A DNA stretch of 32,219 bases from an uncultured Bacilli bacterium. Lineage in GTDB: Bacteria > Bacillota_I > Bacilli_A > RF39 > UBA660. The position numbers were made by a program, and so were the translations under genes. The notes below the pieces were generated by a model. That model saw only the letters and a program-made list of their open reading frames with translations. It did not search any database and was not told where the DNA came from. This document shows, one piece after another, positions 11,954 to 32,101 of the stretch. The stretch spans positions 1-32,219 of the forward strand of contig CANQEJ010000008.1 of assembly GCA_947594925.1 (NCBI GenBank). The letters are read 5' to 3'. The first letter of the stretch is position 1. Every line of letters begins with the position of its first letter.

Positions 11954-12877
11954 CTACATCCTTTCAATTACTCTTAATTTAGCACTTTTACTACGTGAAT
12001 TTTCTTCTAACTCTTCCTTACTTGGTAATATTGGCTTTTTATTGACTATTTTAATTAGAGGCTTATATTCATCGGGTATTTCCGGTAAACCTTTAACTAT
12101 ATCATTAACCTCACTATATTCTTTAAAAATATTTTTAACTATTCGGTCTTCTAAGGAGTGAAAAGTAATAACTGCTATTCTTCCTCCTTTTTTTAGAAGT
12201 TTTATCGCATCGGGTAGCACTTTTTCTAAAGCCTCAAGTTCCCCATTAACTTCAATTCTAATGGCTTGAAAGATTTTTCTTTCGGGATGGTTTTTAAAAA
12301 AGTAATTTGCTCCCACTGCTTTTTTAATAATTTCGACTAATTCTAAAGTTGTTTTAATACTTTGCTTTTTTCTTTCTTCTTCTATTTTTAAAGCAATAAC
12401 TTTAGATAGCTTTTCTTCCCCATAAGTAAAAAATATACGGGCCAGGTCCTCTTTAGAATATTCATTAACAACTTCATAAGCACTAAATGGTTTATCTTTA
12501 TCCATACGCATATCTAAAGGTGCATCATGCATAAAACTAAAACCACGCTCTTCGTTATCAATTTGCGGACTAGAAAAGCCTAAATCAAATAATATTCCAT
12601 CAACCAATTCTATATTTTCTTTAGCTAAAACTGTTTGCATATCTTTAAAGTTAGCATGAAAGATTTTATAGTTCCCCCCAATTTCTGATAAAACTTTATC
12701 AGAATACTTAATTGCTTCGCTATCAGCATCAAAGGCGAATAAGAAGCCCCTTTTTAATTTTTTTAATATTTCTTTACTATGTCCTGCATATCCCATTGTG
12801 GCATCAATATACAAGCCATCTTCTTTGATATTTAAATTACTAATTGCCTCTTTTAATAATACGCTATAGTGTAACAT
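11954..12877 (-). CDS. rsmH: 16S rRNA (cytosine-1402 N4) methyltransferase
   Basis: RsmH (MraW) methylates C1402 of 16S rRNA, 307 aa. Family motifs: ATMGYAGHSKEIL (AdoMet site), FAFDADSEAI, LFDLGFSSPQID, and near the end VITFHSLEDRIVK. The start codon overlaps the mraZ stop by one base (TAATG), as at rpoB-rpoC, suggesting coupled translation. Second gene of the division cluster, under the mraZ promoter and its GTGG boxes. Confidence 0.98.
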   Translation of the reverse strand: MLHYSVLLKEAISNLNIKEDGLYIDATMGYAGHSKEILKKLKRGFLFAFDADSEAIKYSDKVLSEIGGNYKIFHANFKDMQTVLAKENIELVDGILFDLGFSSPQIDNEERGFSFMHDAPLDMRMDKDKPFSAYEVVNEYSKEDLARIFFTYGEEKLSKVIALKIEEERKKQSIKTTLELVEIIKKAVGANYFFKNHPERKIFQAIRIEVNGELEALEKVLPDAIKLLKKGGRIAVITFHSLEDRIVKNIFKEYSEVNDIVKGLPEIPDEYKPLIKIVNKKPILPSKEELEENSRSKSAKLRVIERM

Positions 12878-13311
12878 TAAAAATCAACTTCCATAAAAAG
12901 ATTTTCGGCAATATCTTCGAGTTTCTCGGCATTGTCATTTAAGAAAGCATCCCAAGAAGCTTTATCCCAAACTTCAATTCTATCGTTGGCGCCGATTATA
13001 ACACACTCTTTTGTTAAACCGGCATGACCAACGAGTGGGGAGGCAATATTTATACGACCTTGACGATCGACTTCAATTAAAGCAGCACCAGAAAAGAAGG
13101 ACCTTACAAAGATACGAGCATCTTTTTTTGTAAATGGTAAAGTGTTTAATTTCTTAACTATTTTTTCCCAATCTGCTTGGGAATAAATATATAAACACTT
13201 CTCTATTCCACGGGTAATAATGAATTTATCTCCTAAAGTCTCGCGAAACTTAGCAGGAATTATCAAACGACCTTTTTCATCAAGGTTATGATGATATTCA
13301 CCCATGAACAT
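12877..13311 (-). CDS. mraZ: Transcriptional regulator MraZ
   Basis: DNA-binding AbrB-fold protein that controls the division cluster, 144 aa, normal length. It begins [16 protein letters not shown], nearly the family consensus. Two SpoVT/AbrB-like halves are visible, the second around [14 protein letters not shown]. MraZ usually represses or tunes its own operon by binding direct repeats in its leader; three such repeats lie at 13321-13344. The start is the first Met, as in B. subtilis, and the GGGGG just upstream is both ribosome site and part of the third box. Confidence 0.97.
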
Positions 13312-20256: not shown

Positions 20257-21177
20257 TTAACTATCAATAATATAAGGGTCACTACTAGTACCACTACCAG
20301 AAATTATTTTGACATTTTGAATTAAATTAATTACAGGTCTTATTGCATTGGTAGCAGTAAGACTACTTTCTTCTAAACGATTATTAGTAGAAACAACGAA
20401 AACTTTAACGGTTCCATCATTAGAGCTTGGGGTCATAGTCCAATAAGAACTAGAAAAAGAAAGATAGTTATTACTTGCTGACCCTTCTAAGGCTAAACCT
20501 GCAAAATTAGCTTCTTCAGCATTAAGCAAACCTATTTTACTAGCAAAAGGAGATGAACACGCTAAAGATGGAACACCCATACTAATATTTTCATAGCCAG
20601 CAAAATTACCTGTAAGAGAATTCAAATTCATATTATTACAAAAATTTCCATTACTCTTAATAATTCTATTAAATGAACCTAAATTATTATTATACCAATT
20701 ATCAAGAATTTCTTTAATGGTACTGCTATCATAGGCAGCCATAATTTCTCCACCTTCGTTATGATTATAACTACCTGAACTAATACTAGAATTTAAAATA
20801 AGTCTTATGGTATTATCTTCATTAATACGCACAATGCGCCATACAAAACTAGAAGTATCAGATAATTTCACATAGTTATTTTCAACATTACCTCTAAAAT
20901 AATAACTTGTTTTATCATCAACACTTGTTTCATATAAACCACTAGTATTATTTCCAGCTGGTAAAGTAAAATCATTAATGGCATCCCCTGGCAAATTTTC
21001 TTTAATTTTAGTCAATAATCGATTATCTTGTTCAAAAACTAAAGGTAAATTAGTTTTTCTTAAAATTAAACGGGCATGAGAATAATTAGCTAAAAGACCC
21101 ATCATCAATAAAACAAAGCATAGAAAAAAGGAATAAATAACAGAAATAGCAATAAAACCATTTTTCTTTTTCATCAT
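20257..21177 (-). CDS. Surface-type protein with pilin-like N-terminus, paralogue of the 564-aa DGR target
   Basis: A 306-aa protein starting MMKKKNGFIAISVIYSFFLC: a short basic head, Gly-Phe, then a long hydrophobic helix, resembling a type IV pilin N-terminus but without the usual Glu5. The body shares segments with the 564-aa protein: SYYFRGNVENNYVKL, WRIVRINEDNTIRL, a W-containing YWTMTPSS, and the close RPVINL then SGSGTSSDPYII. These suggest the same C-type-lectin-like domain. The stretch matching the target's variable region is unlike the template repeat, so it is probably not diversified. Function unknown; likely exported. Confidence 0.8.
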   Translation of the reverse strand: MMKKKNGFIAISVIYSFFLCFVLLMMGLLANYSHARLILRKTNLPLVFEQDNRLLTKIKENLPGDAINDFTLPAGNNTSGLYETSVDDKTSYYFRGNVENNYVKLSDTSSFVWRIVRINEDNTIRLILNSSISSGSYNHNEGGEIMAAYDSSTIKEILDNWYNNNLGSFNRIIKSNGNFCNNMNLNSLTGNFAGYENISMGVPSLACSSPFASKIGLLNAEEANFAGLALEGSASNNYLSFSSSYWTMTPSSNDGTVKVFVVSTNNRLEESSLTATNAIRPVINLIQNVKIISGSGTSSDPYIIDS

Positions 21178-28897: not shown

Positions 28898-29464
28898 TTA
28901 TTCTGCTTCTGATGATGGTTCAGTTGTTGTTCCAGATGTATTTGAAGCATTATAATATGTTGTTCCTGTTCCTGTTATAACATTTAACTTAGCACTAAAT
29001 GATTTTCCTTGATTACTATCTTGGTTACTATAGGTTTCTTTAAATGCTACTGAGAAAGTATACGTATGTGTTTCTCCAGGAGTTATTGTTCCATTTCCCA
29101 AATTTTTTGTACCACTAGTTTCTGTGATTGTTCCATCAGTAACTTTTGCAACTGTAGTTCCAGATGCAGATGTAGTACCAGAAATAACACCACTCAAGCT
29201 ATATGTCAATTCTTCATTAGTAATATTATTACTTATTTCTACTAATTGAATTGTATATGGTGCACTTGTAAATCCACTTCCACCTTCTGATTTAATAGTA
29301 AATGTTTTATCTGCACTTTTTGCCCCAGGTAATGCATCTTTCAAAGAAATATCATTGCCGTCATTATAAGTTATTGTTCCTATCGTTGCTGTATTTACTA
29401 TGATTGAACTTGCACTATCTGTTCCTGTTACACTTGCTGTGAAATACGCAAATGTGGCAATTAA
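28898..29464 (-). pseudogene. TasA/camelysin-like surface protein, 5' end lost
   Basis: The frame is open from 29479 with no usable start. It reads LIATFAYFTASVTGTDSASS, the end of a SipW-type signal peptide and the start of a mature TasA/camelysin-like protein, then Ser/Thr/Gly-rich beta structure (ISLKDALPGAKSADKTFTIK) to a Ser/Glu tail. A TAA stop at 29480-29482 precedes the hydrophobic part. An internal ATG at 29344 would skip the export signal. The 5' half lies inside the 309-bp duplication. A +1 shift would join a short hydrophobic ORF upstream, so a frameshifted signal peptide is possible. Confidence 0.7.
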
Positions 29465-29529
29465 ATATATATAATTATTTTAAGACACAATAAAAGATAA
29501 AGAGATAGGAATACTTATACATAACGAAG
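29221..29529 (-). repeat. 309-bp tandem duplication, unit 1
   Basis: Appears identical base for base to 29530-29838. The unit holds the 5' part of the TasA-like frame plus about 65 bp of AT-rich upstream sequence. The join shows only a 2-base (AG) microhomology. 309 is divisible by three, but stops within the unit prevent an in-frame protein repeat. Confidence 0.95.
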
Positions 29530-29838
29530 TAATATTATTACTTATTTCTACTAATTGAATTGTATATGGTGCACTTGTAAATCCACTTCCACCTTCTGAT
29601 TTAATAGTAAATGTTTTATCTGCACTTTTTGCCCCAGGTAATGCATCTTTCAAAGAAATATCATTGCCGTCATTATAAGTTATTGTTCCTATCGTTGCTG
29701 TATTTACTATGATTGAACTTGCACTATCTGTTCCTGTTACACTTGCTGTGAAATACGCAAATGTGGCAATTAAATATATATAATTATTTTAAGACACAAT
29801 AAAAGATAAAGAGATAGGAATACTTATACATAACGAAG
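29530..29838 (-). repeat. 309-bp tandem duplication, unit 2 (gene fragment)
   Basis: Second copy of 29221-29529. It encodes the same TasA-like N-terminal fragment, then reads into unit 1 and stops after about 15 foreign codons. Identity suggests a very recent event or an assembly duplication. Confidence 0.95.
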
Positions 29839-30189
29839 ATTATTAGTTTTTTTTAATTCTCTTTATCTTTTCACTTCTATATATAAACGTTTACACGTTT
29901 ATACCACTTTTAAGATACAGCAATAGTTATATTCTCCTTCCTACATTTAAAGGAAGACGAAACAACGTCTGTATCATGTCTTTTGAGTTATTCTATTCGC
30001 CATTAATAGGGTTTAATAATAACCCAAGGACCAAATCTTGTTTCCAATCTAAATTATTATAGATTTCCAAAGTCTTTTTATTATTTACTTCTTCTTACTT
30101 TGGCTACTTCCTCTCTTTATTAGATACTATCCAATAAATCTCGGTATAGTGATATAAATTTTTTATATCAAAATAATTCTAGTAGGAAT
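29839..30189 (-). other. Non-coding stretch after the template repeat, rich in hairpins
   Basis: No gene is visible in either strand. It contains a series of inverted repeats: 29882-29903 (9-bp arms, loop TTAC), 29937-29956, 29955-29970, 30009-30025 (GGGTT/AACCC) and 30151-30169 (8-bp arms). In DGRs the sequence after the template repeat forms a structured part of the template RNA, and the reverse transcriptase gene usually follows; here none does. The hairpins are seen; the RNA role is inference. Confidence 0.4.
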
Positions 30190-30291
30190 CTGGCAGAACG
30201 CCGTTTGTATTGTTCACGTTGTTGTTGTTGATGTTGCCATTATTGCCATTGAACTCATTGGCGTTAGACGAGTTGGAATTATTAGGCGACA
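30190..30291 (-). other. DGR template repeat (TR)
   Basis: 102 bp whose - strand in frame reads SPNNSNSSNANEFNGNNG and on, with 16 Asn codons (AAC/AAT) in about 34. It aligns with the variable region of the 564-aa gene (30481-30588), apart from two 3-base gaps. By hand, 26 positions differ and 19 of those are A in this copy; 19 of its 37 A have changed against 7 of its 65 other bases. Fourteen of the 16 Asn codons encode another residue in the target. AAY codons at the variable sites and A-specific change are the hallmark of DGRs. It is non-coding in context and on the same strand as the target. Confidence 0.85.
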
Positions 30292-30364
30292 GGCAAACTT
30301 GAACTCAATATTTCAGATTTGACCCTATATAAACAAACTACGTTTATACCTTATTTTAATTTGC

Positions 30365-30392
30365 CCAAGACTTTGACGGAGCAAAGTCTTGG
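30365..30392. repeat. 11-bp perfect hairpin between target gene and TR
   Basis: CCAAGACTTTG (30365-30375) and CAAAGTCTTGG (30382-30392) with a 6-base loop, 14 bp after the target stop codon. Neither strand has a T run after it, so it is not a normal terminator. DGR targets often carry a hairpin just past the variable region that aids retrohoming; this one lies about 90 bp past the VR, further than usual. Confidence 0.7.
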
Positions 30393-30406
30393 CATTATTC
30401 GCTATT

Positions 30407-32101
30407 TTATCCTACGATAAATGGATTATTTTGAGACCCGTCACCAGAGGTGATTAGTGTATCAGCATTTAGATTGATAACTGGACGAACGACATGGTCA
30501 GTATCGTAAACGCGGTAGTCGTTGATGCCCCCGCCAGTACCGCCATAGAACTCAATGGCGTTAGATGAAAGGGCACTATAAGGCGACATTGACCACATCC
30601 ACCAATAATACTTATCGTTGTTTTTTAAATATTTTAATAGATAATTATCTCTTGTGGCTCCATTATAAGACATACCAGCCATATTCATTTCATCTGCTGT
30701 TAACAACCCTACTTTAAGCTTATATACTCCACCATAGTTTCTTTTTTCGCTTCCGCTTTGTTTTGTTGGGTCTGGACATTGTAGCGATGGTTTTTTATCT
30801 GTATTTAATCTTTTATATGGACCATAATATAACGTACTGCTTTCACTTCCAGAACCATATGATGTATCGTTGCAAAAACTTGTTAAGGCTATTTTATCAT
30901 TGAAATCTTTTAAAGTCGTATTATACCAATCCTCTAAGTAACCTTTTATAGTGGAATTAGTTCCCATGTTTTCTGAGTTAGTCCAACTATTTCCGCTATA
31001 ATCGCTTGAACATGGTTTATCATGCGTACAAGGTTCACTATTTTCATACGTATATCCTACATACTGATATCCATTATATGTTTCATTAAACGCTGACCCA
31101 CCAACGGGGTTATCTGTTACAAGTCTTATTGTTCCATCTCCATTTATTCGAACAATACGCCACATTATTGGTTGATTTGATGTTTGCATAGGCTCAGACT
31201 GAATATCTTCAATACACTCTTGAGCAGAACCATATTCATAATCTATTTCATAATTATTATTACAATCATTTTCGGCAGCGTCATATGAACCATATACTGT
31301 AGCCATAGATTGGTCATGACCTACCATATATAGGTATGCGTTTTCCTTATTTGTGCCTAGTTGAACATAATTATTTTCTACATTTCCTCTAAAGTAATAA
31401 CTTGGTCCTTCATCATCAAATGATAAATATAGTCCACTCTTATCACTTCCTGATGATGAATTTGGATAACCTTTACTAAAGTCTGGTTCTTCTGTTATTA
31501 CAGCATATTCTTTTCCAAATATTTTTGTTTTTAAATCGCCTACTCCAGCTCCTGTTTCGATTGTTATTTTAAATGTAAAGCTTTTATTCTCACCCTCTGT
31601 TTCTGATGTATCTTTATCCATCCAACTTCTGATTTTTACTATCTTAGTTTGTTTTGGACCTACTACTCCTGTTCCTATTATATATGATGCTTCATTACTA
31701 AATCCTGATATTTCTCTTTTTGTGGTTGGTGTAGCTTGTGATAGTAACTTATAATCGTTATCTACTGCAACCTTTAAGTGTTCATCTTTTAAAGTCGAAC
31801 CTTGTTCTTTATTTAGTATTACATTATATGTTGACACTGTATCACACTTATTTGTAATTTGTACTTCATATGGTTCATTTTTTAAGCCATCTTCATCTTT
31901 TTGAGGATATCCATTTTGTATTGATATTCCATTTCCATTAGTCTCTGCGTAACTTATTTCAAAACAAGCATATGTATTTTTATTTACTCCTGTTTGAATA
32001 TGTGTTCTACTCCATATAGCATAGGTAAATGTTGTTATTGCGAGTATCAACATTACTCCTATTACAGTTATTATTGTTATTTTACGTTTTCTTTCCTTCA
32101 T
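30407..32101 (-). CDS. Secreted surface protein, DGR target with C-terminal variable region
   Basis: 564 aa. N-terminal basic head and hydrophobic helix ending TFTYAIWSRT, a SipW/camelysin-type signal region, then a beta-rich domain (about 40-200). A second part shares SYYFRGNVENNYVQL and WRIVRINGDGTIRLV with the 306-aa protein. The C-terminal region (YYWWMWSMSPYSALSSNA) resembles the C-type-lectin-like fold used by DGR targets. Residues 505-541 are the variable region, followed by the constant RPVINL and SGDGSQNNPFIVG end. AGGAAGG and an ATG-TAA mini-ORF precede the start. Expressed from the G8-spacer promoter. Probably a diversified binding protein; the ligand is unknown. Confidence 0.85.
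   Translation of the reverse strand: MKERKRKITIITVIGVMLILAITTFTYAIWSRTHIQTGVNKNTYACFEISYAETNGNGISIQNGYPQKDEDGLKNEPYEVQITNKCDTVSTYNVILNKEQGSTLKDEHLKVAVDNDYKLLSQATPTTKREISGFSNEASYIIGTGVVGPKQTKIVKIRSWMDKDTSETEGENKSFTFKITIETGAGVGDLKTKIFGKEYAVITEEPDFSKGYPNSSSGSDKSGLYLSFDDEGPSYYFRGNVENNYVQLGTNKENAYLYMVGHDQSMATVYGSYDAAENDCNNNYEIDYEYGSAQECIEDIQSEPMQTSNQPIMWRIVRINGDGTIRLVTDNPVGGSAFNETYNGYQYVGYTYENSEPCTHDKPCSSDYSGNSWTNSENMGTNSTIKGYLEDWYNTTLKDFNDKIALTSFCNDTSYGSGSESSTLYYGPYKRLNTDKKPSLQCPDPTKQSGSEKRNYGGVYKLKVGLLTADEMNMAGMSYNGATRDNYLLKYLKNNDKYYWWMWSMSPYSALSSNAIEFYGGTGGGINDYRVYDTDHVVRPVINLNADTLITSGDGSQNNPFIVG
30441..30453. repeat. Small hairpin just past the variable region
   Basis: TCACC, loop AGA, GGTGA, inside the codons for Ser-Gly-Asp, 27 bp beyond the VR end. 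A candidate for the DGR target hairpin, though amino-acid conservation alone could explain it. Confidence 0.35.
30481..30588 (-). other. DGR variable repeat (VR) in the 564-aa gene
   Basis: 108 bp encoding residues 505-541 (MSPYSALSSNAIEFYGG onwards to VVRP). The template's Asn positions read Tyr, Ser, Leu, Asn, Ile, Tyr, Gly, Thr, Gly, Asn, Asp, Tyr, Arg, Tyr, Asp and Asp. Invariant residues between them match the template. Seven changes at non-A template bases and two extra codons show that this VR was not copied recently from exactly this TR. Confidence 0.8.

Follow-up and report, generated by a model that had tools for sequence, protein, structure and literature searches.

The window, which is the 32,219-nucleotide contig C8 of a draft genome from an uncultured Bacilli bacterium, carries a template repeat (TR) located downstream of a gene with a related variable repeat (VR). 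It is part of what appears to be a split, multi-template diversity-generating retroelement (DGR), where the reverse transcriptase (RT) and Avd are encoded at one locus and the templates are found in three cassettes, each behind a gene for a lectin-domain protein. We put the probability of this reading at about 0.8. The genome is a 1.04-Mb draft of 58 contigs and is approximately 89% complete. The original prediction was of a DGR in the window. The gene that precedes the TR does encode a membrane-anchored protein whose C-terminal domain is lectin-like, and the genome has a DGR-type RT and an Avd-like open reading frame, however the window has no RT and the only RT of the genome is on contig C16 at positions 12091–13209. 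Not foreseen were a structured RNA, the three copies of the cassette and a family of about 38 genes to which the target belongs.

Between the stop codon of the 564 aa gene and the TR, which is on the same (minus) strand, there are 115 bp. It is intergenic and the VR is at the C-terminal end of the target open reading frame, as in a DGR. Alignment of 30291–30190 (TR) with 30588–30481 (VR), both on the minus strand, spans 102 template bases and displays 26 mismatches: 19 at A, four at G, two at T and one at C. As A represents 37 of the 102 template bases, the mismatches are concentrated at A (hypergeometric p ~2e-5). The VR also carries two 3-nt insertions relative to the TR, and in the translations, compared by eye, 14 of the 16 template Asn codons are changed. 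The coordinates, these A and Asn counts and the 115 bp spacing agree exactly with those first proposed, and scoring by template base bears out the predicted preference for A.

The window pair is not a clean one. There are seven non-A mismatches and two indels, and the VR 3′ end reads CGTCCAG where the template has CTGCCAG. Judged from the alignment, the window VR is related to the adjacent TR but is no recent copy of it, given the non-A changes and the two indels. The A bias of this pair is also partly ancestral, since VRs of distant paralogues differ from the window TR mostly at the variable Asn codons as well. Loss of the 3′-end match may in addition block homing. The predicted order of target followed by template is correct in that a TR follows a gene of the target family, but the window VR does not derive cleanly from the adjacent TR and fits none of the three TRs of the genome cleanly; the window gene is thus a candidate or future target at most. 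The clean pair is on contig C11. Features of the window are listed in Table 1.

Table 1. Positions of the target gene, the repeats and the surrounding elements in the window
Feature	Position	Strand	Remarks
Target-family gene, 564 aa	30407..32101	minus	N-terminal membrane anchor, middle region, C-terminal DUF6273/C-type-lectin-like domain; VR at residues ~506–539
VR of the 564 aa gene	30481..30588	minus	TR-related, not a clean copy; 19/26 mismatches at template A plus two 3-nt insertions
Perfect hairpin CCAAGACTTTGC..GTCAAAGTCTTGG after stop codon	30365..30392	minus	Among the paralogues of the genome, limited to the three genes with a TR
Palindromic element TATAAACG..GTTTATATA just before TR RNA	30326..30348	minus	Second copy behind the cassette
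5′ arm (AGGGTCAAATCT) of long-range stem enclosing TR	30315..30326	minus	Covariation, helix 1 of alignment A3
TR	30190..30291	minus	16 Asn codons in frame; single G/C difference from C11 TR
Structured 3′ part of TR RNA	30025..30193	minus	In the place of the BPP-1 spacer (Sp); RNA model R1 match, 149 bits
3′ arm (AGATTTGGTCCT) of stem enclosing TR	30027..30038	minus	Covariation
Second palindromic element	29880..29903	minus	Directly after the stop in most paralogues; cassette thus between stop and element
Long imperfect hairpin (AAAAGATAAAGAGA / TCTCTTTATCTTTT)	29801..29871	minus	Terminator-like; end of block common to C11
Block common to C11	29796..30490	minus	Gene tail after VR, TR cassette and hairpin; mostly 92–100% identity, flanking gene sequence 37–87%

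Exactly three TR RNAs are present in the genome, on C8 (the window), C11 and C17, and none is on the RT contig. The cassette is about 500 bp and is located between the stop codon and the 3′ element of its gene. The C11 copy of the window TR is 97% identical over 151 bp and the C17 copy 89% identical, each behind a paralogous gene; the window pair is thus not a chance match. At C11 all 14 mismatches between VR and TR over 102 bp are at A (8 to T and 6 to G). Compared with the C8 TR, the C11 VR has one extra non-A mismatch, which shows that it follows its own neighbour. The C17 pair has 19 of 23 mismatches at A. The C40 VR best fits the C17 TR (19 of 22 mismatches at A, three non-A and a gap), and no TR was found beside C40; from this one best fit, C40 may have been diversified in trans. 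The demonstrable TR/VR pairs are that of C11, followed by those of C17 and C40. By sequence comparison, the A-only relation of VR to TR that is characteristic of a DGR is found at C11 and in relatives: the TR/VR pairs of eight relatives, most of which have TR, avd and RT side by side, show 141 of 149 mismatches at A.

In the genome, the paralogous target family counts 38 full matches, with two more fragments at contig ends. The view that all of the approximately 38 paralogues are active targets was rejected, as most of the VRs fit no TR. The window has another paralogue at 20257–21177, which is shorter (306 aa), shares the C-terminal domain family and has no TR match. Expansion of the family is confined to the genus, with 6–33 matches in congeners and 0–3 in the other sampled genera of the bacterial family. 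Contigs C51 and C53 begin inside VR genes and many other contig ends of this genome (G000) are near VR genes, a pattern that hypervariable or repeated target genes would produce by breaking the assembly.

A conserved RNA structure with covariation surrounds the TR. The alignment of nine cassettes, taken from six species, shows a stem of 12 bp around the TR, with additional helices downstream of the TR. The whole TR RNA has 51 pairs, of which 98% are formed and 11 display two-sided changes; 0 of 500 shuffles reach the observed covariation and slid partners give 0–2 two-sided pairs. The single-sequence fold has z = -3.8. All three cassettes of the genome keep the full structure. No Rfam family matches the TR RNA. 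In BPP-1 the spacer folds, recruits RT-Avd and primes cDNA synthesis (PMC12875486).

The C16 RT belongs to the DGR clade. It displays the motifs PIGNLSSQ, which conforms to [I/L]GxxxSQ, and YMDD. In a tree that left out retron and DRT-type or defence RTs, it is separated from group II introns with 100/100 support and placed together with the RTs of BPP-1, ANMV-1 and a plasmid on which the RT is linked to avd. Similarity to the plasmid DGR RT is at 4e-34, compared with 2e-10 for the best annotated group II match. The best solved relative (3.4e-25, the next match being 3e-12) is 8ub7, annotated simply as a reverse transcriptase, which we take to be the BPP-1 DGR RT. A 117 aa open reading frame overlaps the RT start and has Avd matches in PHROG (1e-9), NCBIfam (9.3e-6) and Pfam bAvd (2.6e-5), the latter two below the curated cut-offs. 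The RT family is found in 24 of 37 sampled genomes of the bacterial family, this one included, and in 0 of 23 outside it. Among named relatives, the nearest are uncultured Bacilli genomes from metagenomes, two of which carry the label "Lapin". Viral contigs gave no RT relative, and the single viral-contig relative of the target (L189) has no TR RNA. In the original statement no annotated counterpart had been seen in this kind of organism, but DGRs have been reported in Firmicutes and are enriched there (PMC8144416); in the open-access literature no paper was found on DGRs in RF39-like or Mollicutes-like bacteria.

A TR close to the RT is the classical layout, which is usual and not defining. 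Here the three TRs are on other contigs, and neither DNA nor RNA model searches of C16 found a TR beside the RT. In a draft of this kind an RT-adjacent TR could have been lost in assembly, and the system would then be an ordinary cis DGR with the three cassettes as extra or dead copies. The same-genus loci L105, L106 and L110, which have the same RNA family and target domain (the RTs of L105 and L106 are 68–70% identical to the present one), display the classical order target-TR-avd-RT, unlike this genome. The cassette is directly before avd-RT in six loci of five congeners (G001, G002 with two loci, G004, G006 and G007), and this adjacency favors the cis reading, as does the repeated nature of the TR, since repeats break assemblies. 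About 70 bp before avd are also common to G000 and the sister genome G005, where the contig breaks 104 bp before avd. Against this, C16 continues without a break from avd to another gene and has no TR there, and similarity to TR remnants before avd is not above that of shuffles. In addition, the full RNA structure is kept in all three cassettes and C11 has its own A-only TR/VR pair. A split is also seen in G114, a member of another genus, where the RT is at 35.6 kb and the TR RNA at 219 kb of one 234-kb contig, 183 kb apart; there RT-avd is right after a ribosomal-protein gene or operon and the TR RNA is behind a target gene. The split is thus not unique to the present assembly, and the cis reading is considered unlikely.

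The components may instead be remnants of a DGR that once worked and now diversifies nothing in the species. Most of the approximately 38 paralogues match no TR, the window VR is not a clean copy, and several congeners have interrupted RTs: those of G002 (C27), G004 (C13) and G007 (C45) are broken by in-frame stops or frame breaks. However the RT and Avd-like open reading frames are intact in C16, and absence of any non-A change over 102 bp at C11 is as expected of a recent event. A dead system in this species is given a low probability. In G002 and G007, the TR/VR pairs adjoining the broken RTs are still A-specific, as would fit an enzyme lost only recently. Genome G072 shows another arrangement, in that it has five TR RNAs and its search gave no RT. 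At its locus L172 (3289–4162 and 8884–10092), short VR open reading frames (50–99 aa) that lack the N-terminal region alternate with TR RNAs, and two TR blocks of 300 bp are identical to each other; these could be silent variable cassettes for recombination.

That the TR is merely the pseudogene end of a neighbouring paralogue, with an A bias from codon use in a variable loop, is very improbable: many unrelated paralogue VRs do differ at A-rich positions as well, but the RNA structure is conserved in three cassettes, both C11 and relatives have pairs with A-only mismatches, and the RT is genuinely of the DGR clade.

The target protein of the window shows a C-terminal region of DUF6273 type, with weak Pfam matches in 8 of 27 family members. 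A model of this domain, with a mean pLDDT of 56, is similar in fold to the IgA peptidase of T. ramosa at its N-terminal domain (Foldseek 8.4e-6; Z 8.5; rmsd of 3.8 over 175 residues), itself a DUF6273 domain with a C-type lectin-like core (PMC12402451, PMC12237041). A C-type lectin fold of the target domain thus has moderate support, given the weak model. No other chain of lectin fold was listed when the domain model was searched, which is not evidence against the fold, and searching the PDB with a profile of the target family gave no match. The full-length AlphaFold model (mean pLDDT 46.7) was left out of the fold search. The L105 and L106 targets display a camelysin/TasA-type N-terminus above the Pfam cut-off, to which the window protein is linked by homology only. 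The target protein is likely to act as a surface fibre or adhesin whose tip is variable.

The window gene tail and cassette were probably acquired by recombination, as suggested by comparison of C8 with C11. Within the common block (Table 1) the exceptions to high identity are one 60-bp bin of 68%, in a variable loop, and one of 85%, whereas the gene bodies are 37–87% identical in 60-bp bins. In most paralogues a palindromic element, TATAAACG..CGTTTATATA, is directly after the stop codon; in the three TR genes the cassette intervenes, and a related palindrome also precedes the TR. The paralogue layout and the C8/C11 identity profile suggest that the cassette spread through homologous recombination, either between gene tails or between palindromes. 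An extension of this, to which we give slightly less than an even chance, is a modular DGR, where the TR-RNA cassette is portable and self-folding, moves through about 40 surface-lectin paralogues by recombination and places the recipients under mutagenic control of the single RT-Avd in trans. Behind the TR cassette, window positions 29219–29518 and 29528–29827 form an exact 300-bp tandem duplication (period 309) which covers part of the downstream open reading frame at 28898–29344 and is either an assembly artefact or a very recent duplication.

A split DGR of this type would work as follows. RT and Avd would be made from the single C16 locus, and template RNA from the three self-contained cassettes just behind the lectin-domain genes of C8, C11 and C17. 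The RNA would fold such that the long-range stem encloses the TR, with the structured 3′ part after it. By analogy with BPP-1, RT-Avd would bind the structured part and start cDNA at the 3′ end of the TR, with misincorporation opposite template A during synthesis. The cDNA would then take the place of the VR in any paralogue where both ends match the TR, presumably by homing in trans. C11 and C17 would be targets of their adjacent cassettes. The window gene would have received its cassette and gene tail by recombination, and its VR would be either unrewritten so far or blocked by the 3′-end mismatch.

If correct, DGR template and enzyme are separable in nature, as they are in engineered systems, and the covarying RNA model provides a means of finding orphan templates. 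The genome would be an example of a small gut genome with about 38 lectin-domain paralogues, of which a few are wired to a mutator. A global DGR survey asked for one repeat no more than 1 kb from the RT (PMC8144416) and would for that reason have missed split DGRs. Remote targets and partial trans action of DGRs are already known (PMC4891356, PMC7517822, PMC10907252); no report of a genome with every TR away from the RT was found in the open-access literature.

The DGR of Bordetella phage BPP-1 (mtd-avd-TR-brt) is similar in having a DGR-clade RT, Avd (an Avd-like open reading frame here), an A-specific TR/VR pair, a structured RNA 3′ of the TR (PMC12875486) and a variable C-terminal lectin-like domain. 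It differs in that all parts are at one locus, with one target and the TR between avd and brt, whereas here the TR cassettes are behind target genes and RT-avd is elsewhere. In Treponema denticola one RT also serves several remote targets (up to seven; PMC4891356), but there a single TR is in the core module with the RT, and here there are three TRs with none beside the RT. Thiohalocapsa PB-PSB1 has a DGR set of 9 loci and 15 targets, where loci without RT or TR are diversified, probably in trans, and within-genome duplications are found (PMC10907252). That set however has several RTs, a complete locus for each class and targets tied to conflict systems, whereas the present genome of about 1 Mb has one RT and no complete locus.
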